A stretch of 52,385 nt of DNA, taken from positions 1 to 52,385 of IMG/VR virus record IMGVR_UViG_3300044691_000213; one strand, 5' to 3'. A program made the position numbers and the translations under genes. Numbering within the stretch: position 1 is the stretch's first letter; the number at the start of each line of letters is the position of its first letter. Source of the DNA: a virus. Positions 6,968 to 45,970 of this stretch are shown here, piece after piece. The notes beneath the pieces are model-generated. The model saw only the letters and a program-made list of their open reading frames with translations, made no database searches and was not told the origin of the DNA.

Positions 6968-7236
6968 CCACCTTCCCCAAGATCCACGCCGCTGTCGGAG
7001 AAAAGCTCCGCTGCACCAATGGTCATGAGGTGGCCCGTTTCCGCGAGCCCCTGATCGACGGCCAGCCCTTCGACGCCCCGCATCACCTGTCATCCTGGAT
7101 GATCTCCGACACGGACATACTCGTAGGACGATGCTCCTGCGGGTTGCCGTGGAGAGCGGGATATGGGGCATCAACTCAAGTTCGGGTTGGGAGTGAGTGG
7201 GTGCCGGTGGCTGCGGACGAGGGAGCGGGAGAATGA
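6964..7236 (+). CDS. Hypothetical protein with Cys pairs, 90 aa
   Basis: Starts at ATG 6964, overlapping the MT-A70 stop, and ends overlapping the next ATG. CTNGHEVAR near the N-terminus and RCSCGLPW near the C-terminus could form one zinc site. It lies between the two methyltransferases, but its role is unknown. Confidence 0.65.
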   Translation: MTTFPKIHAAVGEKLRCTNGHEVARFREPLIDGQPFDAPHHLSSWMISDTDILVGRCSCGLPWRAGYGASTQVRVGSEWVPVAADEGAGE

Positions 7237-8564
7237 GCCCGCTCGTATACGGCAGCGTCTGCAGCGGGATCGAAGCGGCGACCGTTGCATGGCATCCGCT
7301 CGGCTGGCGCCCAGCCTTCTTCAGCGAGATCGAGGCGTTCCCCCGCGCGGTGCTGTCTCACCATTATCCGGCCGTACCGCTTCACGGCGACTTCACCACC
7401 ATTGAGGCGGGCCAGTATGACCCAATTGAGCTTCTTGTCGGCGGAACCCCCTGCCAGAGCTTCAGCATCGCCGGGCTCCGTGGGGGACTGGGAGACGACC
7501 GTGGTAACTTGGCCCTCGAATATCTTCGGCTGGCTGACCGCCTGCGGCCCCAGTGGCTGGTTTGGGAGAACGTGCCCGGCGTCCTGTCATCGAACGGAGG
7601 ACGGGATTTTGGAGCCATTCTCGGGGGCTTGGTCGAACTCGGGTATGGGTTCGCCTACCGAGTGCTTGACGCTCAGCACTTTGGAGTTCCCCAGCGACGG
7701 CGTCGCGTCTTCGTTGTCGGATATCTTGGAGACTGGCGACCTGCCGCAGCGGTACTTTTTGAGCGCCACAGCCTGCAAGGGCATATTGCGCCGCGCCGCC
7801 AAACGCGGGAAAGCGCTACCGAAGGCGCTCAACGATGCTCTTTCGCAATCGGCTCACATGCTGGAGCGGCCGATGGAGATCAAAGCAATAGATCCCATGC
7901 AGCAGGAGGCCCGGTAGGATTAAATATCAGCGATGAACTCGCCTATAGCCTAAGAGCCGGCCGCAATCAATCGGGCGCATTCGGCGGAAATAACACGCGC
8001 GGTCCGATCGATGTGGCATGCGCCTTGAACGCCTCCGGCACCGCCTCCGGCAGAATGGACTTCGAGAGCGAAACCTTCATCGTCGGCACGCTGAATGCCA
8101 ACGGGAAAGCGGCCGGGAGCGCCACACAGCAGGATGCCGAGAGCGGCATGCTCATCACTCACGCGCTGACCGCCAACGGCTTTGACGCTAGCGAGGACGG
8201 GACGGGGCGGGGCACGCCGCTCGTACCGGTCGCGTTCTCCTGCAAGGACCATGGTGCCGACGCGGGCAGCATATCGCCGACCCTACGCTCTATGGGCTTC
8301 TCCGGCAGCCACGCCAATGCTGGTGGACAGGTCGCGGTTCAGAATCACGCTGGCGTCCGCCGCCTGACGCCACGCGAGTGCGAACGGCTCCAGGGCTTCC
8401 CCGACGATTACACAGCCGTCCCGTATCGCGGAAAGATCGCCGCAGACGGACCCCGGTATAAGGCCCTTGGAAATTCCATGGCGGTTCCCTGCATGTCCTG
8501 GATCGGCCAGAGAATTGAACTCGTGCGCGCCATCCTAGCTCAGCATAAGGCGCGAGCAGCATGA
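7233..8564 (+). CDS. C5-cytosine DNA methyltransferase (Dcm-like)
   Basis: 443 residues. Motif I is GSVCSGIEAATVAW; the catalytic Cys is at 74 in GGTPCQSFSIAG; motif VI is WENVPG (about 110-115); motif VIII is VPQRRRRVFVV (about 151-161). The C-terminal LTPRECERLQGFPDDYT with ALGNSMAVPCM closes the domain. A long Gly/Asn/Thr-rich target-recognition region of nearly 200 residues lies between. All catalytic motifs are intact. It is probably an orphan anti-restriction methyltransferase. ATG 7233 is chosen by its ATGA overlap with the preceding gene. It converges on a leftward gene 10 nt away, and no terminator is visible between them. Confidence 0.94.
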   Translation: MSPLVYGSVCSGIEAATVAWHPLGWRPAFFSEIEAFPRAVLSHHYPAVPLHGDFTTIEAGQYDPIELLVGGTPCQSFSIAGLRGGLGDDRGNLALEYLRLADRLRPQWLVWENVPGVLSSNGGRDFGAILGGLVELGYGFAYRVLDAQHFGVPQRRRRVFVVGYLGDWRPAAAVLFERHSLQGHIAPRRQTRESATEGAQRCSFAIGSHAGAADGDQSNRSHAAGGPVGLNISDELAYSLRAGRNQSGAFGGNNTRGPIDVACALNASGTASGRMDFESETFIVGTLNANGKAAGSATQQDAESGMLITHALTANGFDASEDGTGRGTPLVPVAFSCKDHGADAGSISPTLRSMGFSGSHANAGGQVAVQNHAGVRRLTPRECERLQGFPDDYTAVPYRGKIAADGPRYKALGNSMAVPCMSWIGQRIELVRAILAQHKARAA

Positions 8565-26400: not shown

Positions 26401-26605
26401 CCGTGATGGCATGAACTTCTCGGCGCCCCCTGCCGCAGCGAATGCGGCCACGAGCCAGTCGGCGGGAGGCGACACTTACCACGTCACCGTCCAGGCGATC
26501 GACACTCAGGCCGGCGCGCAATTCATCCAGCAGCACGCCAGGACCATCGTCACGGCGCTGCGCGCCCAGGTTCGCAACGGCACGCCGCTTCCAGGGGTGC
26601 GGTAA
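23411..26605 (+). CDS. Tail tape measure protein
   Basis: 1064 residues, the longest protein in the window. Long alpha-helical and coiled-coil stretches fill the middle (EQEKIENKIAEYQKAQQG, KKEIAEKKQATEQWW). Hydrophobic membrane-active segments lie near residues 130-160 (LSTVLAMAGVAAGVIAVGGG) and 930-950 (YVGWILAPVAAAGAFAAVAA). At about 0.15 nm per residue (the known tape-measure scaling) it predicts a tail of roughly 160 nm. It is followed by the first tail-tip gene with a 1-nt overlap. Confidence 0.95.
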   Translation: MSNLTLSLTANISDAQTKLAVLRSALTDVNATVRQQSAAYVEADNAARATMLPALQAVTAEQKNLQAGVNAATIAVKGHGEAHQGLFAKLQQNRAALQEVEHSIRASMDALAAGASPMKVASQELPRIIQAFTELNGVSLSTVLAMAGVAAGVIAVGGGLAALVIHAENVDEMFGKMQAAFEATGRGTEFTRAGAIVLIDALRSLHGVSTQNAEDMVQGFARIRTIGIGSFLDLGTAVAGYARVSGGDVKSAQETLTRALEGGYESVRKLDEQWQIFTPGQAEIARKFSDTGDKAGFMGVAISALKDKFGALIDTGLTPTQKASNDLGVAWNNLMHTFGQNSAINGARDAIARLLETMAGGINTDALETAKAKLTELQQIKTNSNPNNPLDAVFLPGIDRDIAKLQDFIALQEKAKAAAIPTGEAVPDAQQELTKQALDDYHKQTAAKAEQEKIENKIAEYQKAQQGTTGETFDALQHGIDALRVKMQSLKDAGGQTIVQQLQVELDQRIAKEQVFGAQAKALELKFWTDKLALIKTAADQANGEIEAGSRAAYQIQQKAFTLSQAVHSEEVAATKKEIAEKKQATEQWWRDYSTGMEQAIKQSAGNYDQMKALAKDWEDTGKILFGDHIAHFKSASDAILKIDAEEKAQLRKNAEKEAAFEAEQARHAQAMSQIQAKPDAGEFKVNAFDLVFSDGATKLQEQIQAQSDALTTGLRAELADLQSEMEAATTAGDSNRYQAALDKQVEAQARTTQQITALQARAATATEAAWEKALSPIDRAFSSSVQGILEGTQTTAQAMNKLAESIVMSFINAAEQDLVHWIAHELAKTTATTTGTATRKGVVAAGATSETVAENASGVAYAGVETAKTAAAVEGSTIRSTAATGEAAAGKAESAAAGSTSIMNDAYKAAAATYANVAEIPYVGWILAPVAAAGAFAAVAAYDVLSAEGGAWEINGTTPAVLHHQESVLPAAVAAPMRDFFSNGAAGALQLSVPQIRDGMNFSAPPAAANAATSQSAGGDTYHVTVQAIDTQAGAQFIQQHARTIVTALRAQVRNGTPLPGVR

Positions 26606-27246
26606 TGTCAACCGCCGTCTATCCCACCAACACCCAGTTGCCGGGCGTCACCTATACCGTCAAGCGCACGCCGCAAGTCCAGAGCCGGATTCAGATCTCG
26701 ATCAGCGGCAAGGAAACCCGGATCTCCGACTGGTCGTATCCGCGCTATAATTACGAGCTCCAATACGAGTTCCTGCGCACCGCCGCGGCTTTTCAGGAAT
26801 TGCAGCGCCTCGGGGCGTTCTACGTGGCGCGGCTCGGGCCGTTCGATTCCTTCCTGTTCAATGATGTTGACGACAATGGTGTGACCGGCCAGGTCATCGG
26901 CACGGGCGATGGGGTAGCGACCTCATTTCAACTGGTCCGCACCTATGGCCCCTCCGGCACCGTCGCGGTCGAGCCGATCTTCGCCCCGAATGTCGTCTCG
27001 GCCGTCAAGGTCAACGGCGTGCTGCAGACGGTCGATGTCGATTATGGCGTCGGCAATTGGGAGAACGGCGTCACGCCGAACGGCACGCTCGCCTTTTTCT
27101 CGGGCGCGCCTGCCGATGGCGCCGTCATTACCGCCGATTTCACCTTCTATTGGCCGTGCCGCTTCTCAGACGACACCCTCGATCTTGAGAAGTTCATGAA
27201 CGGGCTTTGGCAGGCAAAATCCGTCAAATTCATGAGTTTGAAGTGA
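26605..27246 (+). CDS. DUF2460 tail-tip protein
   Basis: 213 residues. Signature elements are QVQSRIQISISGKETRISDWSY, FQELQRLGAFYVARLGPFDSFLF, the duplicated insert with VEPIFAPNVVSAVKVNG, and the final FYWPCRFSDDTLDLEKFMNG. DUF2460 proteins correspond to the distal tail component in gene transfer agents and related siphophages, the ring between tube and hub. The order tape measure, DUF2460, DUF2163, NlpC/P60, hub is conserved in such tails. The stop overlaps a GTG (GTGA) that starts the next gene. Confidence 0.9.
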   Translation: MSTAVYPTNTQLPGVTYTVKRTPQVQSRIQISISGKETRISDWSYPRYNYELQYEFLRTAAAFQELQRLGAFYVARLGPFDSFLFNDVDDNGVTGQVIGTGDGVATSFQLVRTYGPSGTVAVEPIFAPNVVSAVKVNGVLQTVDVDYGVGNWENGVTPNGTLAFFSGAPADGAVITADFTFYWPCRFSDDTLDLEKFMNGLWQAKSVKFMSLK

Positions 27247-28601
27247 AGCCGATCTCAGACGCGCTCAAAGCGCTCCTGGCGACGCGCCAGTTCTATGCCG
27301 CCGACCTCTATACCTTCACGCTGGTCGGTGACGGCCCGGTCGCGCCATCGCCGCCGCCGCCGCCCTCACCACCGCCACCACCGCCGTCTCCTCCACCACC
27401 GCCACCACCGCCGTCTCCTCCACCACCGCCTGCTCCTGGTGGCAGCTATTACACGATCGGCCGCTACTGGTACGTCGCCACGACCGGCAATGATTCGACC
27501 GGCACCGGTACTGTGACCAATCCCTGGCGCACCATGCAGGGCGCGAACGATAGCGGCGTGCTACAGGCGGGCGACGCGGTCAATTATGCCGATGGCACCT
27601 ATACCCTGACCATCCAGACGAATCTCTCGGCCGGCGGCAACACCAACAGCCCGCTAGGCTACGTCGTCCATCGCGCAATCAATTCGCATGGCGCCAAGCT
27701 CGTGGCCGCGGGGTCGTTCTACGACATGATTGTCGCGACCGGAAACTACATTATCGTAGACGGCTTTGAGATCGACGGCAGCAACGAAGGGCTTTCGTCG
27801 AGCCCGGTGACTGCGGGGAGCGGCTTCGTCGGCCAGGGCCATCACATAATCGTCATAAACAACCTGATCCACGACTTTGGCGGGGCTGGAATAAGCTGCC
27901 TATATAAGGACTGGTACACGATCGACGGCAACACGGTACACGATTGCGCGAAGTTCAACGGGTTCCATGACTCTGGAATTGGCATCTACGAGCCGGCAGC
28001 GACGAGCTATACGCCTTCAGCCGCCGATATCGCCGCAGGTAGTCGTCACATCATCATCCAAAATAACACCTGCTATAATAACGCTGAAACCTACGTCCCG
28101 TTTAGCCTCCCGAGCAATCCTCACACGGACGGCAACGGCATTATTCTGGATGACTTCCAAAACACCCAGGGCAACAACCCATACGTATCGGTAAACACCA
28201 ACTATCCGTACAACAGTTATGTTTACAAAAACACCAGCTATAACAACGGCGGTCGGGGAGTTCACCTATTCTTTACTGACAACGTAACCGTCGACAGTAA
28301 CATTTGCTACACTAACAACCTCGACACGATTGTTACCGGCATCTGGCGCGGCGAATTGTCGAACGCCTTTGGCAACAATAACACTTGGACGAACAACAAA
28401 GCCACTTGTACCAGCACCACGAGCGGTGTCACGGCGAACAACACCGCCGTTCTCGACGGCAGTTCGTCGACTGTGAGCGTCACCTGGAACAACAACGCAA
28501 ACTACGATACCAGGACGGGCGCGCGCAGCTACAGCATAGACAACTCGGCGCGGAACGCCGCATTCCCCGGCGCCAACCCCCTAGGCGGACCCCTGCCGTG
28601 A
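27243..28601 (+). CDS. DUF2163 N-terminal stub fused to a beta-helix domain
   Basis: 452 residues from GTG 27243. Residues 1-33 (KPISDALKALLATRQFYAAD, then LYTFTLVGDG) are the N-terminus of a DUF2163 tail protein. Residues about 34-65 are a Pro/Ser linker, and the rest is a right-handed beta-helix of the pectate-lyase-like type, with repeats such as NYIIVDGFEIDGSNEGLSS, GIILDDFQNTQ, GRGVHLFFTDNVTVDSN and WRGELSNAFGNNNTWTNN. The DUF2163 body resumes as the next gene. The beta-helix stretch uses ATA and other A/T-rich codons more than its neighbours. A depolymerase or receptor-binding role is inferred. A close paralogue lies at 40285-41850. Confidence 0.85.
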   Translation: MKPISDALKALLATRQFYAADLYTFTLVGDGPVAPSPPPPPSPPPPPPSPPPPPPPPSPPPPPAPGGSYYTIGRYWYVATTGNDSTGTGTVTNPWRTMQGANDSGVLQAGDAVNYADGTYTLTIQTNLSAGGNTNSPLGYVVHRAINSHGAKLVAAGSFYDMIVATGNYIIVDGFEIDGSNEGLSSSPVTAGSGFVGQGHHIIVINNLIHDFGGAGISCLYKDWYTIDGNTVHDCAKFNGFHDSGIGIYEPAATSYTPSAADIAAGSRHIIIQNNTCYNNAETYVPFSLPSNPHTDGNGIILDDFQNTQGNNPYVSVNTNYPYNSYVYKNTSYNNGGRGVHLFFTDNVTVDSNICYTNNLDTIVTGIWRGELSNAFGNNNTWTNNKATCTSTTSGVTANNTAVLDGSSSTVSVTWNNNANYDTRTGARSYSIDNSARNAAFPGANPLGGPLP

Positions 28602-28615
28602 TCCGGAGGCAATAG

Positions 28616-29428
28616 ATGGCGACGCTCTATTATTGCTCCGGCGACCGGGACATCACTGTTGACGGCATTACCTACCTGTGCGGCAAGAGCCTGACGGGTG
28701 GTCAGGGCGGCCCGTTCTTCGGCGTCAATACCAAGTTCGCGCTACATCAGAAAATCGGGCTCGAAACCGACACCATCACGTTCGATGTCATCCCCGGCGA
28801 CGGCCAGGTCTTCGGCGAGCCATTTCTGAGCGCATGCCAGGACGGCACTTTCGACGGCGCCACGGTCCAGATCGATCGGGCCTTCATGCCGACCTATGGC
28901 AATGTCGCGGCCGGGATCGTCAATGTCTTCACCGGGCGGGTGGGTGAAGTGGATGCCGGTCGGTCGGTCGCGACCTTCATGGCGAATTCCTGGATGGAAC
29001 TGCTCAATCAGGTATTGCCGCGCAATGTCTATCAGGCGAGCTGCGTGAACAATCTCGGCGATAATATGTGCGGCGTGCATCTGGAATCCTACGCGCAGAA
29101 CTTCACGATTCTGGCGGGATCGACCAAGGCAGTCCTGTTGATCGGCAGCACGGCGGGCAGCGGAGCGCCATACCAGCTTGGCAAGGTCATTGTGCAGACC
29201 GGCTTGCTCGCTGGCCTCTCGCGCTCGGTTCGGGCCTGTGCGTTTTCCGGAGGTACGGGAACGGTCACCCTGTTGGGACCGCTGCCGTCCGCGCCAGCAG
29301 TGGGCGATTCCGTCCGGCTTTACTACGGCTGCGACAAGAGCCAGGGCGCGCAGGGCTGTCCGAAATTCGCCAATATCGCGAATTTCAGGGGATTTCCGTA
29401 TATTCCTCAGCCCGTTACGGCCGTGTAA
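28616..29428 (+). CDS. DUF2163 tail-tip protein lacking its first ~30 residues
   Basis: 270 residues, ATG 28616 with CCGGAGG 6-7 nt upstream. It begins ATLYYCSGDRDITVDGITY, which normally follows the YTFTL segment inside DUF2163 proteins. It continues with KIGLETDTITFDV, then NVYQASCVNNLGDNMCGV and the C-terminal CDKSQGAQGCPKFANIANF, then RGFPYIPQP (phage BR0599-type end). DUF2163 is the hub partner between DUF2460 and NlpC/P60. Its missing N-terminus sits on the gene upstream. The good ribosome site suggests that the body is made separately and still works. Confidence 0.88.
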   Translation: MATLYYCSGDRDITVDGITYLCGKSLTGGQGGPFFGVNTKFALHQKIGLETDTITFDVIPGDGQVFGEPFLSACQDGTFDGATVQIDRAFMPTYGNVAAGIVNVFTGRVGEVDAGRSVATFMANSWMELLNQVLPRNVYQASCVNNLGDNMCGVHLESYAQNFTILAGSTKAVLLIGSTAGSGAPYQLGKVIVQTGLLAGLSRSVRACAFSGGTGTVTLLGPLPSAPAVGDSVRLYYGCDKSQGAQGCPKFANIANFRGFPYIPQPVTAV

Positions 29429-29429
29429 A

Positions 29430-29927
29430 ATGCCGACCGAAAGCGAAATCGCCATCGAGCGCGCCGCCGTTGTGGCCGAGGCAGAGGCGTGGCTTGGGAC
29501 GCCGTTTCACCATGAGGCCAGAGTCAAGGGGGCCGGAGTTGACTGCGCTCAACTCCTGGCCGGCGTCTACCATAATGCCGGGCTCATCCCGAACCTGAAT
29601 ATCTCGCACTACCCGCACGACTGGCACATGCACCGGGATGCCGAGCGCTATCTGGCGACGGTGTTTCAATATGCCGTCGAAGTGCAGGGCCTTGAAGACC
29701 GAACTCCGTTGCCGGGCGATATCGTCGTCTTCCGCTTCGGCCGCACCTTCTCGCATGGCGCGATCGTCACCGCCTGGCCGATGGTCATCCATGCCTATGT
29801 CGGCAAAGCGGTTTCGGCTGAGGACGTTTCGACCAGCGCCTATTTGCAGACGATCGGCGAGAACACCGCCGACAAGGGCCATCCAAGGCCCATGCGCGTC
29901 TTCATTTTGAAGCGGTGGGCCGAATAA
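29430..29927 (+). CDS. NlpC/P60 cell-wall peptidase of the tail tip
   Basis: 165 residues. The catalytic Cys 39 lies in GAGVDCAQLLAGVY and His 109 in RTFSHGAIVTAWP, with an upstream ALAYLGTPFHH-like region (WLGTPFHHEARVKG). This family cuts peptidoglycan cross-links and works from the tail tip during DNA entry. Starts 1 nt after the DUF2163 stop and overlaps the hub gene. Confidence 0.92.
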   Translation: MPTESEIAIERAAVVAEAEAWLGTPFHHEARVKGAGVDCAQLLAGVYHNAGLIPNLNISHYPHDWHMHRDAERYLATVFQYAVEVQGLEDRTPLPGDIVVFRFGRTFSHGAIVTAWPMVIHAYVGKAVSAEDVSTSAYLQTIGENTADKGHPRPMRVFILKRWAE

Positions 29928-32785
29928 TGGCAGGCATCTTCGGCTCCTCTTCGCAATCCACCCAAACCCCAGCGGTCAGCGGCTTCAACGTCCAGACCTC
30001 GGCCTATGGCAAGTGCATCCCGATCGTTTTCGGCTTTACGCGCCTCGCGCCAAATCTGCTGTGGTATGCGAATTTCCAGGCCCACGCCCATCAGCAGAAG
30101 GTCGGCAAGGGCGGCGGCGGGTGTTTCCTCGGCCGCGTTACTGTCGCCACCCCGCAAGGCCCGCGCCCGATCGGCGAGATGGCCGAGGGTGACGAGATCT
30201 ATTGCCGCAATCCCCTCACTGGCGAGCGGGAAATCGGCCAGGTCGTCGGCACCTCGATTCATCGGCTCGGCGACACGCCCAATCGGTTGGTCAAGATCTC
30301 ATACGAAGGAGATCGCGTCCTCGACGGCATCACCGACAATCACCATGTCTGGCTCGATCCGCAGAATTACAGCGAGGCCGGCGGTCTGACGGCCGATCAT
30401 CTGTTGGAGATGGTCGACGGTTCCATGGCGCGGGTAAGCGGCATCGAAGATATCGCGTCGGACCCGGATGATCTCGTCCATAATTTGGTTGTGCTGCCCT
30501 GGCACAACTATTTCGCCGATGGCGTGCTGGTGCATAATGGCGGCGGCGGCAAGGGGCCGGTCTCCTATACATATACCGTCGACCTGATCCTCGGAATCTG
30601 CGAAGGCCCGCTTTCCACTGGAGCGGCCGACTCCCCTCTCTGGGTCGGCAAGACGAAGACAACCGCCGCCGCGCAGGGCATGTCGTATATCGACGGCGTC
30701 TGGCCCTATCTCGCCACCAAATATCCGTCGCAGGCACTGGGCTACAACTCCGTTACGCTGCTAGTGGGGGCGAGCTATAATCTCGGAAATAACACGCAGT
30801 TGCCGAACTTCAATGTTGAAGTTGGCTTTACGTCATTGGGCGAGATTGCCAATGGGGACGAATTTCCGCACCTGATAGCACTTGAACTTCTGGGTAACTT
30901 TCAATATGGGCTGGATCTTGGCTATTACGGCGATTCATCTTCCGTGGTTGGAAGCTGGTATTTCTATCGGGATGGGTCCGGCTCATTTGTCTGGGATACA
31001 TATTACAACTATATTGTCGCCTCCGGCCTGTTCATGTCGGTTGCCTATACCAACCAAGTTCCTGCGGCGCAAATGCTGCAGGAGATCGCGACCTTCACCA
31101 ACAGCGAATGGGTCTGGTCGAACGGCAAGTTGTTCCCCGTTCCCCGCGGAACGGTGTCGCTCTCGGCCACATTTCCCGATCCATCGCTCGACGTTACCTA
31201 CACGCCGCCGACGCCCGTATTCGATCTGACCGACGATGATTTCCTGCTGAACGTCTCCGGCAGCACGACATCGACCTCGAATGACCCGATCATCGTCTCG
31301 CGCAAGCGCGTCTCGGATCAGAACAACGTCGTCACGCTGGAATGGCTCGACCGCAGCAATGAATATGCGCCGGCCATCGCGGAAGCCTCCGACCAGGCAC
31401 TGATTGATGTCTACGGACGGCGCACGACCGGCACGCAGCAGGCGCATCTGTTCGCGACCGCTTCTTGCGCGAACAATTCCGTGCAACTCCTTCTCCAAAA
31501 GGAATATGTCAGGAACACCTACAGCTTCACGCTCGATGCCCGCTATGTCGTGCTCGACCCGATGGATATCGTCACGCTGACGGACGCCGCGCTCCGGCTG
31601 GATCACGCCTGGGCGCGCATCACCGAAATGACGGAACAGACGGACGGCACGATCGCGTTTCTCGCCGAGGAAGTTCCCGAGGGCGGCGGCCAGCCGGCGC
31701 TCTATAGCTTCGCGACCGGCCAGGGGTTCAGCCCGAACTATGGCGCCGATCCGGGCATGGTCAACACGCCGATCATCTTCGCCGCCCCGACGCAATTGAC
31801 CGGCGGCGATCTGGAGGTGTGGGGGGCGGTCTCGGGCGCCAGCGCCAATTGGGGCGGCGCCAATATCTGGATCTCGCTTGACGGCGGCTCAAGCTATACC
31901 TTCATCGGCACGCAAACCGGCTCGGCGCGGATGGGCGTGCTCAATACGCTCCTGCCGGTCATGGCTGATCCCGATATCACCGACACACCGACCGTCGATC
32001 TCACGGAATCGTTCGGCGAACTCTTCTCGGTCTCCCAACCCGAAGCCGACCAAGCGCTGACGCTCTCGATCGTTGATGGCGAGTTGTTCGCCTATGAGAC
32101 GGCAACCCTGACGGCACCCTATACCTACCAACTGTCCTATCTGCGTCGCGCGCTCTACGGCACGATCCAGGCGACCCATGTTTCGGCACCGTTCGCGCGG
32201 CTCGACAACCAGATCTTCAAGTACCCCTACAAGTCGAGTCAGATCGGCCAGACCGTCTTCCTTAAATTCACCTCGTTCAACATCTATCAGGAAGCCGAGC
32301 AGAGCTTGGCCGATGTCGTGGCCTATCCTTACGTGATCGGCACGGCGCCGGATTCCAATCGCTTCACCCTGGCACAAGCATCCTCGCCAGATTGGCCCGG
32401 CACGCTCTCCGGGTTCCTCAAGACCTGGGACGGCATCCTGGTGCCCGACAGCACCCTAGGCGCCAACGCCCACACCAACGCGCAATTGTTCACGCAGTTC
32501 GTGCCGTTCCCCGTGTCGAGCCCGACCTATCAGGGGCCGGCGTTCGATATCGGGATTTCGGAGCCGGTCAACGTGACGATCCGGCCGGCGGCGTCTGCGC
32601 CGAATGGCGGCGTCGCGGTCAATGCGACGGCCCTTGATCACTGGTCGACCGGATCTGACCCGAATACCTTCGCCGCGTTCTCGACCGGCAGCATCACGGG
32701 GCGGTATTTCCGCGCCCAGATCACGCAGGACACCTCGGTTGCGCCGTCCTATGTGACCGCGCTCGCCCTCAACATCTTCAATTAG
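29927..32785 (+). CDS. Tail-tip hub protein carrying an intein-like domain
   Basis: 952 residues from ATG 29927. Residues 1-65 and 205 onward belong to a GTA gp15-like / phage tail_3-type hub: FNVQTSAYGKCIPIVFGFTR, KGPVSYTYTVDLILGICEGP, QEYVRNTYSFT-like LLQKEYVRNTYSFTLDARY, and PMDIVTLTDAALRL. Between them is a 139-residue Hint domain (66-204) in the glycine loop that usually reads K-G-G-G-K. The hub binds DUF2163 and the fibre and opens during infection. If the Hint domain cleaves, the protein would be separated into a short N-terminal piece and a 748-residue body. Confidence 0.92.
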   Translation: MAGIFGSSSQSTQTPAVSGFNVQTSAYGKCIPIVFGFTRLAPNLLWYANFQAHAHQQKVGKGGGGCFLGRVTVATPQGPRPIGEMAEGDEIYCRNPLTGEREIGQVVGTSIHRLGDTPNRLVKISYEGDRVLDGITDNHHVWLDPQNYSEAGGLTADHLLEMVDGSMARVSGIEDIASDPDDLVHNLVVLPWHNYFADGVLVHNGGGGKGPVSYTYTVDLILGICEGPLSTGAADSPLWVGKTKTTAAAQGMSYIDGVWPYLATKYPSQALGYNSVTLLVGASYNLGNNTQLPNFNVEVGFTSLGEIANGDEFPHLIALELLGNFQYGLDLGYYGDSSSVVGSWYFYRDGSGSFVWDTYYNYIVASGLFMSVAYTNQVPAAQMLQEIATFTNSEWVWSNGKLFPVPRGTVSLSATFPDPSLDVTYTPPTPVFDLTDDDFLLNVSGSTTSTSNDPIIVSRKRVSDQNNVVTLEWLDRSNEYAPAIAEASDQALIDVYGRRTTGTQQAHLFATASCANNSVQLLLQKEYVRNTYSFTLDARYVVLDPMDIVTLTDAALRLDHAWARITEMTEQTDGTIAFLAEEVPEGGGQPALYSFATGQGFSPNYGADPGMVNTPIIFAAPTQLTGGDLEVWGAVSGASANWGGANIWISLDGGSSYTFIGTQTGSARMGVLNTLLPVMADPDITDTPTVDLTESFGELFSVSQPEADQALTLSIVDGELFAYETATLTAPYTYQLSYLRRALYGTIQATHVSAPFARLDNQIFKYPYKSSQIGQTVFLKFTSFNIYQEAEQSLADVVAYPYVIGTAPDSNRFTLAQASSPDWPGTLSGFLKTWDGILVPDSTLGANAHTNAQLFTQFVPFPVSSPTYQGPAFDIGISEPVNVTIRPAASAPNGGVAVNATALDHWSTGSDPNTFAAFSTGSITGRYFRAQITQDTSVAPSYVTALALNIFN
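30122..30538 (+). other. Hint / bacterial intein-like (BIL, A-type) domain
   Basis: 139 residues in frame inside the hub gene. Block A is CFLGRVTVATPQGPRPIGEM with Cys1. Block B is the T-x-x-H motif TDNHHVW (T71, H74). Block F/G is VHNLVVLPWHNYFADGVLVHN, ending His138-Asn139. The domain is bordered by GGGG on both sides. There is no homing-endonuclease insert. The residue after Asn139 is Gly, not Cys, Ser or Thr, so full canonical splicing is not expected; N- and C-terminal cleavage is. This matches A-type BIL domains. Confidence 0.88.
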
Positions 32786-32793
32786 GTGACAGA

Positions 32794-35700
32794 ATGGCCG
32801 TAGGGACCTTTCTACAGTCGAACTATGCCACCCTCTCGGGTTCGGCCTATCCGCTCGCGATCGATGCGAGTTTCGCCGTCTCGAAACGGTTCATTGACGC
32901 CTTCGCGCCGCACGAGGCCGCATCGCCGAACATGACGGTCCTGCTCGATGCAGGGCACGTCTACAACGTCTCGACAAACGCCCTGACCGAAGTCGCACAG
33001 CAGACGACCTCGACCATTACGGCGCCAGTCACGCATCCGCGGATCGACCGGATCGTGGTCGATGCCGGCACGGGCGTCTATACGCGGGTCGGGGGAACCG
33101 AGGCGACCAGCCCCGTTGCGCCCGCGATCCCGGCCGGCAAGATCCCCGTCTGCCAGATCCTTCTTCAGACGACCTCGACCACCATCACGAATTCGATTCT
33201 GACGGACGAGCGCGCGTTGTGGATGAACGGGTCTCTCGCCAACCCGATGACGACAGCGGCCGATCTCATCGTTGGCGGCAGCGGCGGAGCGCCTGCGCGT
33301 CTCGCCGTTGGATCGAACGGGCAGGCGCTGATCGTCTCCGGCGGCGCAATTGCCTGGGGTATTCCGGCGCTCGCCGCGATTGCTGACGGCGATGTGCTGG
33401 CGAATACGAGCGGCGGCTCGGCCGCTCCGGTCGCCACCACGATCTCCACCGTGATCGATCATGCGCTGGGCAATACTCAGGGCGATGTACTCTACAGGAA
33501 TTCGTCGGGCTGGGTGGTGCTGGCTCCGGGAACCTCGGGCCAAGTCCTGACGACGGGCGGCACTTCCGCCAATCCTTCCTGGACGACCGTATCGGGCGGT
33601 GGTGGCAGCGGCACCGTCACCAGCGTGGGCGTGTCCTCGACCGATCTCAGCGTATCGGGTTCGCCGGTCACCACCTCCGGCTCGATCACGCTCAACGTCA
33701 ACAGCAATGCCATCACGAACGCCAAGCTGGCGCAGATGGCGGCCCACACCTACAAGGGCAACAACACCGGCTCGACCGCGAACGCCATCGACCTGACGGC
33801 AACGCAATTGACGGCCGAACTGAACGCAGTGGTCGGCGATACCGGCTCGGGTGGCACGAAGGGCATGGTTCCGGCACCAGGCTCTGGCGACGCCTCCGCC
33901 GGCAAATTCTTAAAGGCGGATGGCACCTGGGAAATTCCGCCCGGCGGTGGCGGCGGCGGCGGCTCCGTTACGAGCGTGGGCGTGTCCTCAACGGACTTCA
34001 GCGTGTCGGGCTCCCCGATCACCAGTTCTGGCTCGATCACGCTCAACCTGAACACCACGGGCGTTACCGCCAGCACCTATAAGTCCGTGACGGTCAACAC
34101 CAAAGGACAAGTCACCGCCGGTACGAACCCGACGACCTTGTCCGATTACGGGATTACCGACGCCCTGGCTCTGGCGGGCGGCGCGATGTCCGGCGCTATC
34201 GCCATGGGCACTTTTGGGATTACAGGGCTCGCAACGCCTGTCAATCCGGCCGACGCCGCAACCAAAGCCTATGTGGACGGGGTGACTTCTGGGCTTAGCA
34301 TACGCGATAGCTGCGCCGCCGCGACGAATGGCGCGCTTCCGAACACGCCCATCTACAGTAACGGCTCGTCCGGTGTCGGCGCTACGCTAACGGGTGTGGG
34401 TTTTGCGGCGCTTGTCGTCGACGGCTACACAGCGGCGGTGAACGACCGTATCCTGGTCAAGGACCAAGTGACCGCCGCGAACAACGGCATATACACGGTT
34501 ACGGTCGCGGGCAGCGGCGCGGCCGTATACGTGCTGACGCGCGCAACCGACTGCAACTTCGCTAGCAACATATTCTCTGGGATATTCACCTTCATCGAAC
34601 AGGGCACCGCCAATACGGGCGCGGGCTTCACCTTGACCACGGCCGGCGCTATCACGGTCGGTACGACGGGGCTAACCTTTACGCAGTTCAGCGGCGCCGG
34701 AGAGATTACGGCCGGCACGGGGCTTGCCAAGAGCGGCAACACTCTGTCCCTCGCGACGATCGCCAACCATGACGTGCTCGCCAACACGAGCGGCGGCACG
34801 GCGGCGCCCGTCGCTACAACGCTCACCGCACTGATCGACGACGCGATTGGGTCCACGCAGGGGGCTATCCTCTACCGCAACTCGTCGAGTTGGGTCGTTT
34901 TGGCGCCAGGCACAAGCGGCCAGGTTCTCCAGACAGGCGGCGCTTCCGCCAATCCGTCCTGGACGGCGGCCGGAGGCGGTTCGGGCACCGACATCCAGGA
35001 GTTCACCTCCAGCGGCACCTGGACAAAGCCGGCCAGCGCGACATCGACATCCTCTATCGAAGTCATATGCGTCGGCGCGGGCGGCGGCGGCGGGGGCGGA
35101 GCTGGTGGCGCTACGGGCACCTCCCGCATCGGCGGCGGCGCCGGGGGTGGAGGCGTCCGGATAACACGAGTATTCAAGGCGGCCGATCTCGGTTCCACCG
35201 AAACGATAACTGTCGGCGCGGGCGGCACTTCCGGGACGGCCGGCTCTTCCGGGGTTGGCTCCGCGGGCGGCGCGGGCGGCAACAGCAGCGTCGGCTCGAA
35301 GCTGACCGCCTACGGCGGCGGCGGCGGCGGCGGCGGTGCTGCCACCGGCACGTCGGGAAGCGGCGGCGGCGGCGGGGGCACGGGTGGTGCTGGGGGAACA
35401 GGCTCCGCGACAACTACCATCTCCGGCGGCCTCCCGGCGTCTGCGGCGAACGCTGACGGTATAAGCGGGCAGGGTGGTGGTAGCAGTTCCTCGCAGTCGG
35501 CAAAACGAGGGGAGTTCGGCGGCGGCGGAGGAGGCGGCTGCTTGTCGAGCGGTTCACCTCTTGTGGGCGGAGACAGCCTGTACGGCGGCGGCGGCGGCGG
35601 TGGTGGCGGTGGCGTTAGCACAGGCAACGGCGCCTCGACCGGTGCGGCTGGCGGCGGCGTACAGACCTACAGTTCTGGCAACGGCGGGGCCGGCGGCGCC

Positions 35701-35919
35701 CCCACGGGAGCGGTTGGCACTGCGGGAACGTCCGGCAACTCAACGAAGGGCGGCACTGGCGGCGGCGGCGGCGGTAGTAACGGAAGCGGTACTGCCGGCG
35801 CAGGCGGAGCGGGGGGCGCCATTGGCGGCGGTGGCGGTGGCGGCGGCGGCGGCACTACGGCGGGCGGTGCGGGAGGTGCCGGTGGCGCGGGCTACGTCCT
35901 GATCATCACTCATCCGTAG
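32794..35919 (+). CDS. Tail fibre with glycine-rich tip
   Basis: 1041 residues. The N-terminal about 130 residues (LAIDASFAVSKRFIDAFAP, VLLDAGHVYNVSTNALTEVA) look like the attachment domain. The middle has two repeat types: LYRNSSGWVVLAPGTSGQVL units and VTSVGVSSTDFSVSGSPITS units. The region AAVNDRILVKDQVTAANNGIY is a common fibre-shaft domain. From about residue 750 it is a glycine-rich beta domain (EFTSSGTWTKPASA, then long Gly runs), like polyglycine tips of phage adhesins, ending GYVLIITHP. It binds the host surface. No chaperone gene follows. Confidence 0.9.
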   Translation: MAVGTFLQSNYATLSGSAYPLAIDASFAVSKRFIDAFAPHEAASPNMTVLLDAGHVYNVSTNALTEVAQQTTSTITAPVTHPRIDRIVVDAGTGVYTRVGGTEATSPVAPAIPAGKIPVCQILLQTTSTTITNSILTDERALWMNGSLANPMTTAADLIVGGSGGAPARLAVGSNGQALIVSGGAIAWGIPALAAIADGDVLANTSGGSAAPVATTISTVIDHALGNTQGDVLYRNSSGWVVLAPGTSGQVLTTGGTSANPSWTTVSGGGGSGTVTSVGVSSTDLSVSGSPVTTSGSITLNVNSNAITNAKLAQMAAHTYKGNNTGSTANAIDLTATQLTAELNAVVGDTGSGGTKGMVPAPGSGDASAGKFLKADGTWEIPPGGGGGGGSVTSVGVSSTDFSVSGSPITSSGSITLNLNTTGVTASTYKSVTVNTKGQVTAGTNPTTLSDYGITDALALAGGAMSGAIAMGTFGITGLATPVNPADAATKAYVDGVTSGLSIRDSCAAATNGALPNTPIYSNGSSGVGATLTGVGFAALVVDGYTAAVNDRILVKDQVTAANNGIYTVTVAGSGAAVYVLTRATDCNFASNIFSGIFTFIEQGTANTGAGFTLTTAGAITVGTTGLTFTQFSGAGEITAGTGLAKSGNTLSLATIANHDVLANTSGGTAAPVATTLTALIDDAIGSTQGAILYRNSSSWVVLAPGTSGQVLQTGGASANPSWTAAGGGSGTDIQEFTSSGTWTKPASATSTSSIEVICVGAGGGGGGGAGGATGTSRIGGGAGGGGVRITRVFKAADLGSTETITVGAGGTSGTAGSSGVGSAGGAGGNSSVGSKLTAYGGGGGGGGAATGTSGSGGGGGGTGGAGGTGSATTTISGGLPASAANADGISGQGGGSSSSQSAKRGEFGGGGGGGCLSSGSPLVGGDSLYGGGGGGGGGGVSTGNGASTGAAGGGVQTYSSGNGGAGGAPTGAVGTAGTSGNSTKGGTGGGGGGSNGSGTAGAGGAGGAIGGGGGGGGGGTTAGGAGGAGGAGYVLIITHP
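33391..33600 (+). repeat. 210-bp internal fibre repeat, first copy
   Basis: This stretch encodes DVLANTSGGSAAPVATT through GQVL, then TSANPSW. It is repeated in the same frame and at the same length at 34771-34980. The copies have diverged at many synonymous sites, so the duplication is not recent. A second internal repeat (VTSVGVSSTD…SGSITLN) lies at about 33610-33710 and 33970-34055. Confidence 0.8.
34771..34980 (+). repeat. 210-bp internal fibre repeat, second copy
   Basis: Second copy of the unit at 33391-33600, encoding DVLANTSGGTAAPVATT through GASANPSW. It lies just before the glycine-rich tip domain, so shaft-tip junctions flank both copies. Homologous repeats of this type can support exchange of the distal fibre. 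Confidence 0.8.
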
Positions 35920-36524: not shown

Positions 36525-36812
36525 ATGCCAATGGAACGGGTAATCGGGCTCACGGAGGAGCATCTAAAGCTCGTCATAGCCGAAGGCGTGAAGCAGGGCG
36601 TCACGGCCGCGCTCATCACGCTGGGGGTGGATCTTTCGGATGCGGACAGCGTGCAGGACTGGCACGACGAGCGCGCCTATGTGCGGAAAAAATACCGGTC
36701 TGACGAACAGCGCATGATCGCGCTGCGCAATGGTCTGGCTGCGGCAGTCCTGGGAAGTGTGGCGACGTGGTTCGTCACGCACTTCATCGGCACGCCGCCG
36801 ACCGGACATTGA
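36525..36812 (+). CDS. Small phage protein with C-terminal membrane segment
   Basis: 95 residues from ATG 36525 (CGGGAG 8 nt upstream). Helical N-terminus TEEHLKLVIAEGVKQGVTAALITLG, basic middle, and a membrane-like GLAAAVLGSVATWFVTHFIG. It resembles small DUF6127-type phage membrane proteins. It may be an accessory lysis protein, which is uncertain. Confidence 0.65.
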   Translation: MPMERVIGLTEEHLKLVIAEGVKQGVTAALITLGVDLSDADSVQDWHDERAYVRKKYRSDEQRMIALRNGLAAAVLGSVATWFVTHFIGTPPTGH

Positions 36813-36815
36813 ATC

Positions 36816-38195
36816 ATGCCCCGCTACCAATTCCCCAAAGGCATCACGCCAGTCAACAAAACGAGCGATGCGGATTTGGCTCTCGCATTAGGTGCGTGGC
36901 TAAAGCACGGCAAGTCATTGGCGATGGCGGCTCGCGAACTTGGGCTGACTTACGACGCCTTGCGGATAAGAAAGGAGAAGGCAATCAAGCGCGGCATCAA
37001 GCCTCGGGTCCGGATTTCGACAACGCTGCTCGACGAACCGCCGCCGCTAGTGCGCGCACGGGAGATTCCGCGCAGGCGGACGGAGTTCGAAGTGCCGATG
37101 TCTGAGGATGCGGCCCGCTTCCATGAGGAATGGACTGCAGACCAGTGCGTTGCCGAGCTCCGTAAGTTCGCACTCGCCCAACCCGACAAGGTCATCACGC
37201 GTAACTTCTTCCGCAATGAATCTCGGATCTCCGAGGCGACGTGGAACCGCTATTTCGGCACGTTCGAGGAATTCAAGCGCCAGGCTGGCATCACGCTCAG
37301 TCGCCACGCGCATCGCTTGGAACGGAGCATCGCCAAGCATGCCGCGGCAGATAGCTACCGGGTGATGAATGCCGACAAGGCCGGATGGGAAGGTGCCTTC
37401 CTTCGTCCCGACACCCGGCGCTATCAGACGGTGCTAGTCGGCTCGGATGTGCACGACAAGAACTGCGATCCGTTCTGGCGACATTGCTTCATCGACACCG
37501 CTCGACGGGTCCAGCCGGAAAAGATCGTGATCGATGGCGATCTGTTCGACCTGGCCGAGTTCGGGAAATACACCGTCGATCCGCGGGACTTCGACATCAT
37601 TCCGTCGATCCGATGGGTGCAGGCGTTCCTCCGGGATATTCGGGAAGTGGCGCCGGACGCCGAGATGACGATCATCGAGGGCAATCACGAGTTCCGCCTT
37701 ATCCGGCATCTAGCCGAAGCCACGCCGGCCATGCGCGTCGTGCTGTCGGAGTTGCACGGCTTCACGGTGCCGAAGCTGCTGGGGTTGGAAGAGTTCGAGG
37801 TCAACTACATCGCCCGGATGGATCTGGCGGCTTGGACGGAGCGTGACATCAAGGAAGAACTCAAGAAGAACTACGCCATCCAGTATGACGCGGTTCTCTG
37901 GCACCACTTCCCCGAGGGCCGCTTGATGGGCTTTCCGGGTGCTAACGGCCACCATCATAAGACCAAGAGCGATCCGGCATACAGCCCGACCTTCGGTCCA
38001 TTCAACTGGCACCAACTCGGCTGCGGTCACGCGCGATCGGCGAGCTACACGGCTGGCGAGAAATGGCAGATGGGCTTCATGCTGGCCCACGTCGACACCC
38101 AGACGAAGCACAGCGTCTTGGACAACATCGAGGTCAAGCAGGATTTCTCGATCATCGGTGGCCAATGGTATCGGCGCGAGGATATCGCGGAATGA
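36816..38195 (+). CDS. Calcineurin-like metallophosphoesterase with N-terminal HTH
   Basis: 459 residues. Residues about 15-60 resemble a sigma-region-4/HTH segment (LKHGKSLAMAARELGLTYDALR). A second basic helical region spans 100-175. The phosphoesterase follows: DVH at 211-213 (VLVGSDVHDKN), GDLFD at 241-245, GNHE at 289-292, and a C-terminal H/GH pair near NWHQLGCGHARS. All metal ligands are present. Phage members of the family are suspected DNA or nucleotide phosphoesterases. Its placement between tail and lysis genes is unusual. Confidence 0.88.
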   Translation: MPRYQFPKGITPVNKTSDADLALALGAWLKHGKSLAMAARELGLTYDALRIRKEKAIKRGIKPRVRISTTLLDEPPPLVRAREIPRRRTEFEVPMSEDAARFHEEWTADQCVAELRKFALAQPDKVITRNFFRNESRISEATWNRYFGTFEEFKRQAGITLSRHAHRLERSIAKHAAADSYRVMNADKAGWEGAFLRPDTRRYQTVLVGSDVHDKNCDPFWRHCFIDTARRVQPEKIVIDGDLFDLAEFGKYTVDPRDFDIIPSIRWVQAFLRDIREVAPDAEMTIIEGNHEFRLIRHLAEATPAMRVVLSELHGFTVPKLLGLEEFEVNYIARMDLAAWTERDIKEELKKNYAIQYDAVLWHHFPEGRLMGFPGANGHHHKTKSDPAYSPTFGPFNWHQLGCGHARSASYTAGEKWQMGFMLAHVDTQTKHSVLDNIEVKQDFSIIGGQWYRREDIAE

Positions 38196-38404
38196 GCCGA
38201 CGTGAGATCGACGTGATTGCGGTGGGCCATGTCACAACCATCGGCGCCCGTTGCGACGGCGAGAAGATCGAACTGACCACGGCTCATGATGGACTGTTCC
38301 TCGTCAAGGAAATAACACCGCTCCGCGCCATCGCCATCGCAGGCGATCTGATCCGCTTTGCCCAGCAGATGCTCGCCAAGGCCAAGCGCGACCACCAAGC
38401 CTGA
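38192..38404 (+). CDS. Hypothetical protein, 70 aa, coupled to the phosphoesterase
   Basis: ATG 38192 overlaps the phosphoesterase stop (ATGA). Contains DVIAVGHVTTIGARCDGEKI and a C-terminal helix AIAGDLIRFAQQMLAKAKRD. No family recognised. Co-translation suggests a functional partner of the enzyme. Confidence 0.65.
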   Translation: MSRREIDVIAVGHVTTIGARCDGEKIELTTAHDGLFLVKEITPLRAIAIAGDLIRFAQQMLAKAKRDHQA

Positions 38405-38424
38405 ATCCCCACGCCGAGGCCGCC

Positions 38425-39084
38425 ATGACCAACGCATCCCTGCTGCCGGCGGTCAAGGCCGCGCTCCGTGCGAACGAACTCGGGCCGGCCAATCCGTATC
38501 GGCTGAGCTTCGCCGATCTGGGCAAGAGCGGGGCATCGTTCGGCATCTTCCAAGCCGACACGGCGGCGAATATCGGCGCCCGGAGCGCGCTGCGCCTGAT
38601 CTTGACGGCGGCCGGATTTCCCGCGGCCAAAATCAGCACGATCCTGAACACGCTATCGGCGCCCTGCAGCAGCACGAGCCTCGCGCTGTGCGATCTCCTG
38701 GCCGTGAATGCCGCCATCGCCGCGCCGGCCGGTCAACATCTGGTCGACGAGATCGATGAGGTGACGCTCGACACGGTCCTGCGCCATCTCGACCAGGCGG
38801 CCGATGCGGCCGATGCGCAGGGCAAGACGATCGAGCCGCGCGGGCTGTTGATGATCGCGCTCTGGGTCAACATGACCGGTGCCCCGAACACGCTCTGTTC
38901 CTGGATCGAGGGAGCGACTGTCGCGCAAGTCCGACCGCCACCAAATCCCATCGTCTCGGCCGACGAGATCGAATGCTATCTGCGCGCTCAGCAGTATTTC
39001 GTCGCCAATCCACGCACCATTCCCCACTTCCTCGCCTCGGTTTCCGCTGGCGTTGCCCTCCTGCCGGTCGGAGCCGTCTCATGA
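38425..39084 (+). CDS. Probable endolysin (lysozyme-like fold)
   Basis: 219 residues. The pattern E18-L-G…Y…D-L-G-K-S-G-A-S-F-G-I-F-Q (residues 18-43) resembles the Glu…Asp-x-Gly-x-Ser-x-Gly-x-x-Gln core of lysozyme-like and GH46-like hydrolases, with Glu 18 as the candidate acid. The remainder is helical. The gene is followed by a small lysis-region gene and a holin, which supports the call. No signal peptide, so export would depend on the holin. Confidence 0.6.
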   Translation: MTNASLLPAVKAALRANELGPANPYRLSFADLGKSGASFGIFQADTAANIGARSALRLILTAAGFPAAKISTILNTLSAPCSSTSLALCDLLAVNAAIAAPAGQHLVDEIDEVTLDTVLRHLDQAADAADAQGKTIEPRGLLMIALWVNMTGAPNTLCSWIEGATVAQVRPPPNPIVSADEIECYLRAQQYFVANPRTIPHFLASVSAGVALLPVGAVS

Positions 39085-44908: not shown

Positions 44909-45970
44909 TCATGACGCCTTACCGCGAGGGGTCTTTTTCGATGTGGACCGTTCCAGTTTCCGTATCGCAAGCTTCGTCATCTCGGGCATCCGCGGCAGGT
45001 ACGTCCGCAAGATCGTCTCGGCATTCTTGAGCGTATGGCCCGTCACGGAGGCGATTTCCGGAACCGTGCAACCGGCTTGGGCGAGCTTGACGACGGCAGT
45101 GCGGCGGAAGTCGCGGATCTGCATATCCTTGATCCCAGCCCTCCCGCAGACCGTATCGTACCAGTCCCGGAATCGCGTGGTTGAGATCGGCTGCCCAATG
45201 CGGTCGGTGACGATGTGCGTGCCCTTGGCAATAGCCTTGGCGGCCCTCAACTGCGCCGCCAGATCGGTATGGCACCAGATCCGCAGGAACGCCCCGGTCT
45301 TCTGCTGCCGAACCTCGATGCCATCGGTGTTCCAGCGCGCCCAGGTCATCGCCAGCACGTCGCCCGGGCGTTGGGCCGTATAGAGCAGCAGGGCAATGCC
45401 CAGGCGCAGCGCAGCGCCTTCCTCGTGGGCATCGGCCGCAGCGAGCAGCGCCGCAATCTGATCATCACCCCAGACCTGTGACCGAACCGGCGATGCCTCA
45501 AGCCGAAGGTCGCGCGTCGGGTTCTCGGTGATCAGGCGCAGATGCCGCGCCAGGTCGAGCAGATTGTTCAGCACGCCAATCGCGAGCTCGCGTGTTGCTG
45601 GCCGGTCGTTCAGGCCCTTGGCGAACTCATGCACCATCGGAAAGTCGATCTCGGCCGCTTGCAGGTCACCCCAATCGGTTTCGTATCGGTTCAGCCAGAT
45701 GCCGTAGGCTTTTTGCGTTGCCGCGGCCTTGGCCTTGAAGCCGTCGCTGTCGCGATACTCGCGCACGAGCCATCCGATCGAGTGGATATCGAAACCCGTC
45801 CCGCCCTTCTTCGCCTGATCCGCGCGCCGGTTCAGCCGCTCTGCCTCGCGGAACCGCGCGACCTCATTGTCTGACAACCGGACGAGCTTATTGCCCGGCC
45901 GCTGCCAGTACCAGATGATGCGGCCCCCGGCCTTAACCCGCTTTGTGACGTACCGCATTCTTACCAGCAT
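44909..45970 (-). CDS. int: Tyrosine recombinase integrase
   Basis: 353 residues (ATG 45970; ATG 45958 is an alternative). The N-terminal arm- and core-binding regions extend to about 165. The catalytic domain has Arg 201 (YTAQRPGDVL), Lys 224 (RQQKTGAFLRI), box II RDFRRT with Arg 289, His 312 (VTGHTLKNAE) and the nucleophile Tyr 324 (LRTYLPR). The usual box-II His (H-x-L-R) is Arg 286 here. It integrates and excises the phage at att sites. It is the last gene of the leftward operon and overlaps the excisionase-like gene. Confidence 0.95.
   Translation of the reverse strand: MLVRMRYVTKRVKAGGRIIWYWQRPGNKLVRLSDNEVARFREAERLNRRADQAKKGGTGFDIHSIGWLVREYRDSDGFKAKAAATQKAYGIWLNRYETDWGDLQAAEIDFPMVHEFAKGLNDRPATRELAIGVLNNLLDLARHLRLITENPTRDLRLEASPVRSQVWGDDQIAALLAAADAHEEGAALRLGIALLLYTAQRPGDVLAMTWARWNTDGIEVRQQKTGAFLRIWCHTDLAAQLRAAKAIAKGTHIVTDRIGQPISTTRFRDWYDTVCGRAGIKDMQIRDFRRTAVVKLAQAGCTVPEIASVTGHTLKNAETILRTYLPRMPEMTKLAIRKLERSTSKKTPRGKAS

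Follow-up and report, generated by a model that had tools for sequence, protein, structure and literature searches.

The window analysed here is the whole 52,385-nucleotide stretch of the virus record IMGVR_UViG_3300044691_000213, which belongs to a temperate phage. Its tail genes follow the order DUF2460 – hub – NlpC/P60 – megatron, the same as in RcGTA and in relatives whose hub is uninterrupted (Table 1). The place of the DUF2163 baseplate hub gene is taken by two open reading frames (ORFs). The first encodes 452 aa, namely a hub N-terminus of 31 aa, a linker of ~35 aa and a right-handed β-helix of 386 aa (PF13229, E 2.4e-7 in the Pfam profile search), and its GTG start overlaps the stop codon of the distal tail gene. 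The second, of 270 aa, has a PF09931 match that begins only at profile position 28 and is followed by PF09356, exceeds the cutoff of TIGR02218 (“phage/gene transfer agent baseplate hub protein”), and by alignment keeps the four conserved hub cysteines of the iron-sulfur cluster (C143, C152, C239 and C248). As a sequence-only reading of this DNA had proposed, a Pro/Ser linker thus leads into a β-helix, both halves are open, and the remainder of DUF2163 restarts behind a strong ribosome site.

Table 1. Features of the interrupted hub locus and of the second β-helix copy in the window.
Feature	Position	Strand	Evidence or remark
Distal tail protein (DUF2460, RcGTA g12-like)	26605..27246	+	PF09343, E 7e-44; 4-nt overlap with next gene
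Detached hub N-terminus, 31 aa, opening fusion gene 27243-28601	27243..27335	+	Homology, profile join, model
Pro/Ser-rich linker, ~35 aa	27336..27440	+	Comparable linker before the β-helix in L078 and in exported copy L109
Right-handed β-helix domain, 386 aa, including stop codon	27441..28601	+	PF13229, AlphaFold (AF2) model, Foldseek
Shine-Dalgarno GGAGG serving the restarted hub	28605..28609	+	
Remaining hub (strand 2 onward), 270 aa	28616..29428	+	PF09931 from position 28, PF09356, TIGR02218
NlpC/P60 tail peptidase (RcGTA g14 position)	29430..29927	+	PF00877
Megatron-like tail protein (RcGTA g15 position), without β-helix here	29915..32785	+	PF13550, PF23666
Second, exported copy: predicted signal peptide, Ig-like Big_9, same β-helix	40285..41850	+	Sequence similarity

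The window contains no single uninterrupted hub chain. A TAG in the hub frame stands directly 5′ of the ATG at 28616 and the two ORFs lie in different frames, so the sequence as it stands encodes no extended hub and no readthrough or frameshift product, although rare recoding could still yield one. By DNA similarity to contig L078, the inserted cassette spans 27336-28604, its left edge being approximate since it falls in the low-complexity linker. The sequence-only reading had described about 1.29 kb inserted within one conserved gene and the loss of the first 30 residues to the new protein; the clean interruption and the transfer of the N-terminus stand, with a cassette of ~1.27 kb and a segment of 31 residues. 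The motifs GGTGACG (left) and GGCGACG (right) are alike and were considered as a target-site duplication, but a deletion between them fails to restore the frame, so they are not regarded as a scar.

Three further features of the window were recorded. The megatron, whose match to NF048004 is under that profile’s cutoff, carries in frame in its Gly-rich loop a 139-residue Hint/mini-intein-like segment (30122-30538, CFLGRV...VLVHN), which is absent from the L004 and L005 megatrons. Its profile matches are all below cutoffs (Hint_2 E 0.005, PT-HINT 0.006, Intein_splicing 0.03), and as it is followed by Gly and not by Cys, Ser or Thr it may not follow the usual splicing route. Behind the megatron lies a gene for a 1041-aa Gly-rich protein with internal DNA repeats and no Pfam match (32794-35919), possibly a tail fibre. 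A C-5 cytosine DNA methylase gene (PF00145) is found in the early region (7197-8564).

The YTFTL segment encoded from 27243 occurs once in the window and shares 81% identity with the start of intact hubs (E 2e-10). When its 31 aa are joined to the second ORF from residue 2, the product gives a contiguous PF09931 match over positions 1-159, followed in order by PF09356, and the PF09931 score is 115.3 bits, compared with 91.7 bits for the 270-aa ORF alone (+23.6), which is without positions 1-27. The joined hub has the same length as the intact hub of L009; nothing is missing, and the start methionine is the only addition. Judged from these comparisons, 27243-27335 is the N-terminus of a DUF2163 baseplate hub of the RcGTA g13 family, as the sequence-only reading had held, and the split of the hub is real.

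In 57 distinct related contigs (39 + 3 + 15), including three bacterial MAG contigs, the hub gene runs uninterrupted through the split site within the same gene order, and none of them shows the start at the ATLYY position that would have refuted the sequence-only reading. Some of these contigs are near-copies of each other and they are not all independent; they were found via patterns in the N-terminal segment, and split relatives could therefore also have been caught. No split hub was found in other genomes, the window being the sole example, and a literature search, with most subscription journals outside its reach, returned no published description of one. The hub at L011:6001-6871 (the same contig as L051) has a frameshift ~50 codons in, downstream of the split site, attributable to sequencing error or decay, and that of L043 stops at the contig edge. 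When the intact second ORF was used in a short exact-pattern search, the hubs returned were all distant, and the hub of L002 is intact. The hubs at L057:5001-6155 and L059:3866-5026 are ~90 residues longer than the others; that of L057 has a normal N-terminal domain, and its extra residues are apparently C-terminal, where the PF09356 match is broken in two. The relatives of the hub in the PDB are the RcGTA and R4C hubs.

In RcGTA, hub residues 1-142 form the attachment domain that binds the distal tail protein and holds the baseplate to it (PMC7296036), and in both RcGTA and R4C each baseplate contains three hubs (PMC7296036, PMC10276861). The model of the intact relative L052 (mean pLDDT 77.4 and pTM 0.50, with 87-91 in the N-terminal helix/strand part) has a helix at residues 6-14 and strands at 18-26 and 32-36. 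The break is thus predicted to fall in the β1-β2 turn of the attachment domain, and the β-helix protein would carry helix 1 and strand 1 of the hub. The detached segment retains positions that are conserved across hubs (K2, S5, L27 and G31), and its codon changes relative to the nearest relatives are mostly synonymous or third-position changes. Compared with 23 intact hubs it averages 63% identity and the remaining protein 42%, a gap of 21.1 points; among the intact hubs themselves the same gap averages 11.6 (range -1 to 21.1), which places the window at the top of the range. The conservation is partly older than the insertion. The segment shows no drift, which, for the only split hub known, does not give the age of the insertion.

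The AF2 model of the β-helix has a mean pLDDT of 84.8. Its Foldseek matches in the PDB are headed by PL9 lyases and AlgE epimerases; PL6 lyases and tailspikes rank lower. Neither the cassette nor a nine-row family profile found a sequence match in the PDB, PL9 lyases included. At the place of what we take to be the PL9 calcium-site residues, the cassette seems, by eye, to differ. The TM-scores are moderate (~0.5, at 10-16% identity), which limits the support to a domain that probably acts on or binds polysaccharide; with lyases, epimerases and tailspikes all among these moderate matches, no specific enzyme class or reaction is claimed.

The nearest relative of the cassette lies in the related phage L078, as the C-terminal domain of a megatron of 1708 aa (67% protein and 69% DNA identity), where a Pro-rich linker also precedes the β-helix and the hub is intact. 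The linker and β-helix are therefore found on two different proteins of one kind of tail tip. L078 DNA is 80-84% identical to the window over two stretches farther downstream, 36804-38197 and 38407-38993. No β-helix was found elsewhere in seven relatives with intact hubs, in a search of possibly incomplete records run without a positive control, and the cassette has no counterpart in isolate phages (tblastn and blastn, 50,697 phage records).

A second copy in the window (Table 1), which the sequence-only reading had overlooked, is 57% identical to the cassette over 386 aa, the whole β-helix. It sits between the tail genes and the integrase gene (44909-45970), and hence within the phage part of the record. 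From end to end it is 63% identical to a protein of the alphaproteobacterial genome G284 (L074), encoded in a cluster with a sugar transferase, a Wzy-type ligase, Wzz, polysaccharide export, WecG, glycosyltransferases and another β-helix gene. The cassette itself is similar to the L074 protein over the full β-helix (53% identity over 391 aligned residues), and remoter relatives are annotated on Rhizobium plasmids. A recent duplication of the second copy as the source of the cassette was rejected: that copy groups with the bacterial gene (73%, support 98/100) in a β-helix tree whose deeper order is poorly fixed, and the cassette is closer to L078 (67%) than to the second copy (59%).

Like the window, the records G334 (L079 with L109) and G335 (L080 with L081) each combine a fused copy with an exported one. 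A cysteine pair, YxC near the start and GDC ~40 residues on, is present in 4/4 exported and 0/5 virion-fused proteins among nine core sequences; the second copy in the window has both this pair and a signal peptide, and the hub fusion has neither. A scripted tally of cysteines and signal peptides gave 6/2/2/10 (Fisher p 0.019), and its four exceptions were judged by eye to be limits of the script, since the L085 and L086 matches begin past the first cysteine and the hydrophobic leader of L123 and L129 was missed by the rule. Loss of a putative disulfide by proteins folding in the cytoplasm would account for the pattern.

A parallel arrangement is found in the head-closure protein Hc3. In the IMG/VR contigs L079, L080, L082 and L084, a β-helix of the same family stands behind ~54 residues that match the start of P22 gp10-like Hc3, followed by a repetitive linker; the L082 and L084 β-helices are identical. 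The Hc3 of L084, L082 and L080 is without the first 57 profile positions, which sit on the β-helix fusion, and in L080 and L084 the remaining Hc3 restarts (MPRNGPMRGLYT..., phrog_578 from position 58). Joining the L084 anchor to its Hc3 raises the phrog_578 score from 312.2 to 338.9 bits (+26.7) over positions 5-471. Hc3 is unbroken in PAE2, P26218, DSL-LC05 and phiAX1. In the phages with β-helix fusions, two ORFs bear the Hc3 anchor, the second of them with a different cargo, so one copy need not complete Hc3. The second ORF of L079 still continues into Hc3, and these phages look like a series in which an in-frame insertion of cargo was followed by a split, an order that we infer. The second cargo (L079:1865-4666, L084:7122-8792) has no assigned fold; it is in one frame with Hc3 in L079 and forms a separate ORF in L084. 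In Acetobacter phage phiAX1, a gene annotated as a cycloisomaltooligosaccharide glucanotransferase (L100:5023-6843), with no obvious Hc3 anchor, lies directly upstream of the intact Hc3, in the place of the β-helix fusions of L080 and L084.

Taken together, these observations make it probable that a two-chain hub refolds and displays a polysaccharide-active or polysaccharide-binding β-helix at the tail tip. A linker and β-helix module of exopolysaccharide-associated bacterial ancestry would have inserted into the hub gene where a turn links strands 1 and 2; the stop, the ribosome site and the new start would have come with it or been acquired. Two products would result, a β-helix protein with helix 1 and strand 1 of the hub in its first 31 residues and a hub that begins at strand 2. 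As the tail assembles, the detached 31 residues would refill their old place in the hub and complete the β-sheet in trans. Since the hub is trimeric in its solved relatives, up to three β-helices could be held on flexible Pro-rich arms at the tail tip, where they would bind or modify exopolysaccharide on the way to the cell. The signal-peptide copy would be made by the lysogen or the infected cell for export. The function of the 31 residues as an anchor is well supported by sequence comparison, from which we infer physical incorporation of the protein into the virion; the idea gains weight from the unrelated Hc3, which is likewise split for the same β-helix family.

It is unlikely, by comparison, that the shortened hub works alone, the 31 residues being a non-binding leftover and the β-helix protein soluble or lost. 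Such a hub would be missing one helix and one strand of the sheet in its tail-binding domain, even though its cysteines and downstream domains are retained; and while a single example could be a young insertion with little time to decay, the segment keeps its conserved positions without drift, and the same arrangement arose in a second gene. Less likely still is a hub broken by the insertion in a decaying prophage or defective phage. The interruption of a core tail gene, in a record that is a metagenomic contig, would fit such an origin, but all tested neighbouring head and tail genes are open and recognisable, and the hub itself has two open halves, a strong ribosome site at the restart and zero residues lost. 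The misjoining of two sequences during assembly is very improbable. The arrangement is known from the assembly of a single metagenomic record, yet an artefact would need two codon-exact junctions plus an added stop and ribosome site, and even the nearest relative of the cassette shares no more than 69% DNA identity with it.

Tailspike exchange on dedicated anchor domains is well known in phages; in the window, a tail protein that itself bears load has apparently been cut, with its first strand as the socket. The Hc3 split and the pairing with an exported copy lift the finding above a single odd gene. With two unrelated proteins, the hub and Hc3, split for one β-helix family, and the exported copy paired in three phages, we lean slightly towards a general, repeatedly evolved way of mounting cargo on virions, by a split near the N-terminus and a detached anchor that completes the fold in trans. 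If true, one recombination step would turn a bacterial surface enzyme into a virion part, two structural proteins would offer ready split points for display tests with foreign domains, and hub or closure genes listed in databases as “truncated” may in some cases encode two-chain proteins. With one copy fused to the virion and another exported in the same phage, it may be asked whether the lysogen edits the exopolysaccharide that it makes itself.

Among known systems, the DUF2163 hubs of RcGTA (Rcc01696, g13; 6tba/6teh) and R4C (8gtc) share the family, gene order, four cysteines and predicted fold of the window hub, which differs in its two-chain encoding and in the β-helix fused to the first chain. 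The fold class of the cassette is that of PL9/PL6 lyases and AlgE/AlgG epimerases, with no sequence match in the PDB. The Hc3 split of L084, L082 and L080 shares the detached N-terminus, the linker, the β-helix family and the restarting gene; it differs in the unrelated protein, the other phage type, the anchor on two ORFs and a linker that is repetitive instead of poly-Pro, and L079, unlike the window, has Hc3 in frame with the second cargo. The upper baseplate protein of JBD30, whose entry is matched by the DUF2163 profile, combines with the distal tail protein to form the sites where fibres attach (PMC11445458), so the tail-hub region can carry external parts. The RcGTA protein TspA is also a β-helix enzyme on an RcGTA-type baseplate that acts on extracellular polysaccharide; it is a different protein without a hub segment and is loosely bound via several surfaces (PMC13420450), whereas the link in the window would be a hub strand. 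Tailspike depolymerases such as those of Dettilon and CBA120 resemble the fusion in having a virion-binding N-terminus followed by a right-handed β-helix and are among the fold matches. The window protein likewise places a right-handed β-helix, recognised by Pfam and by the model, behind an N-terminus homologous to a tail-binding domain, which was cut from a core structural protein and is not a separate anchor domain as in these tailspikes.
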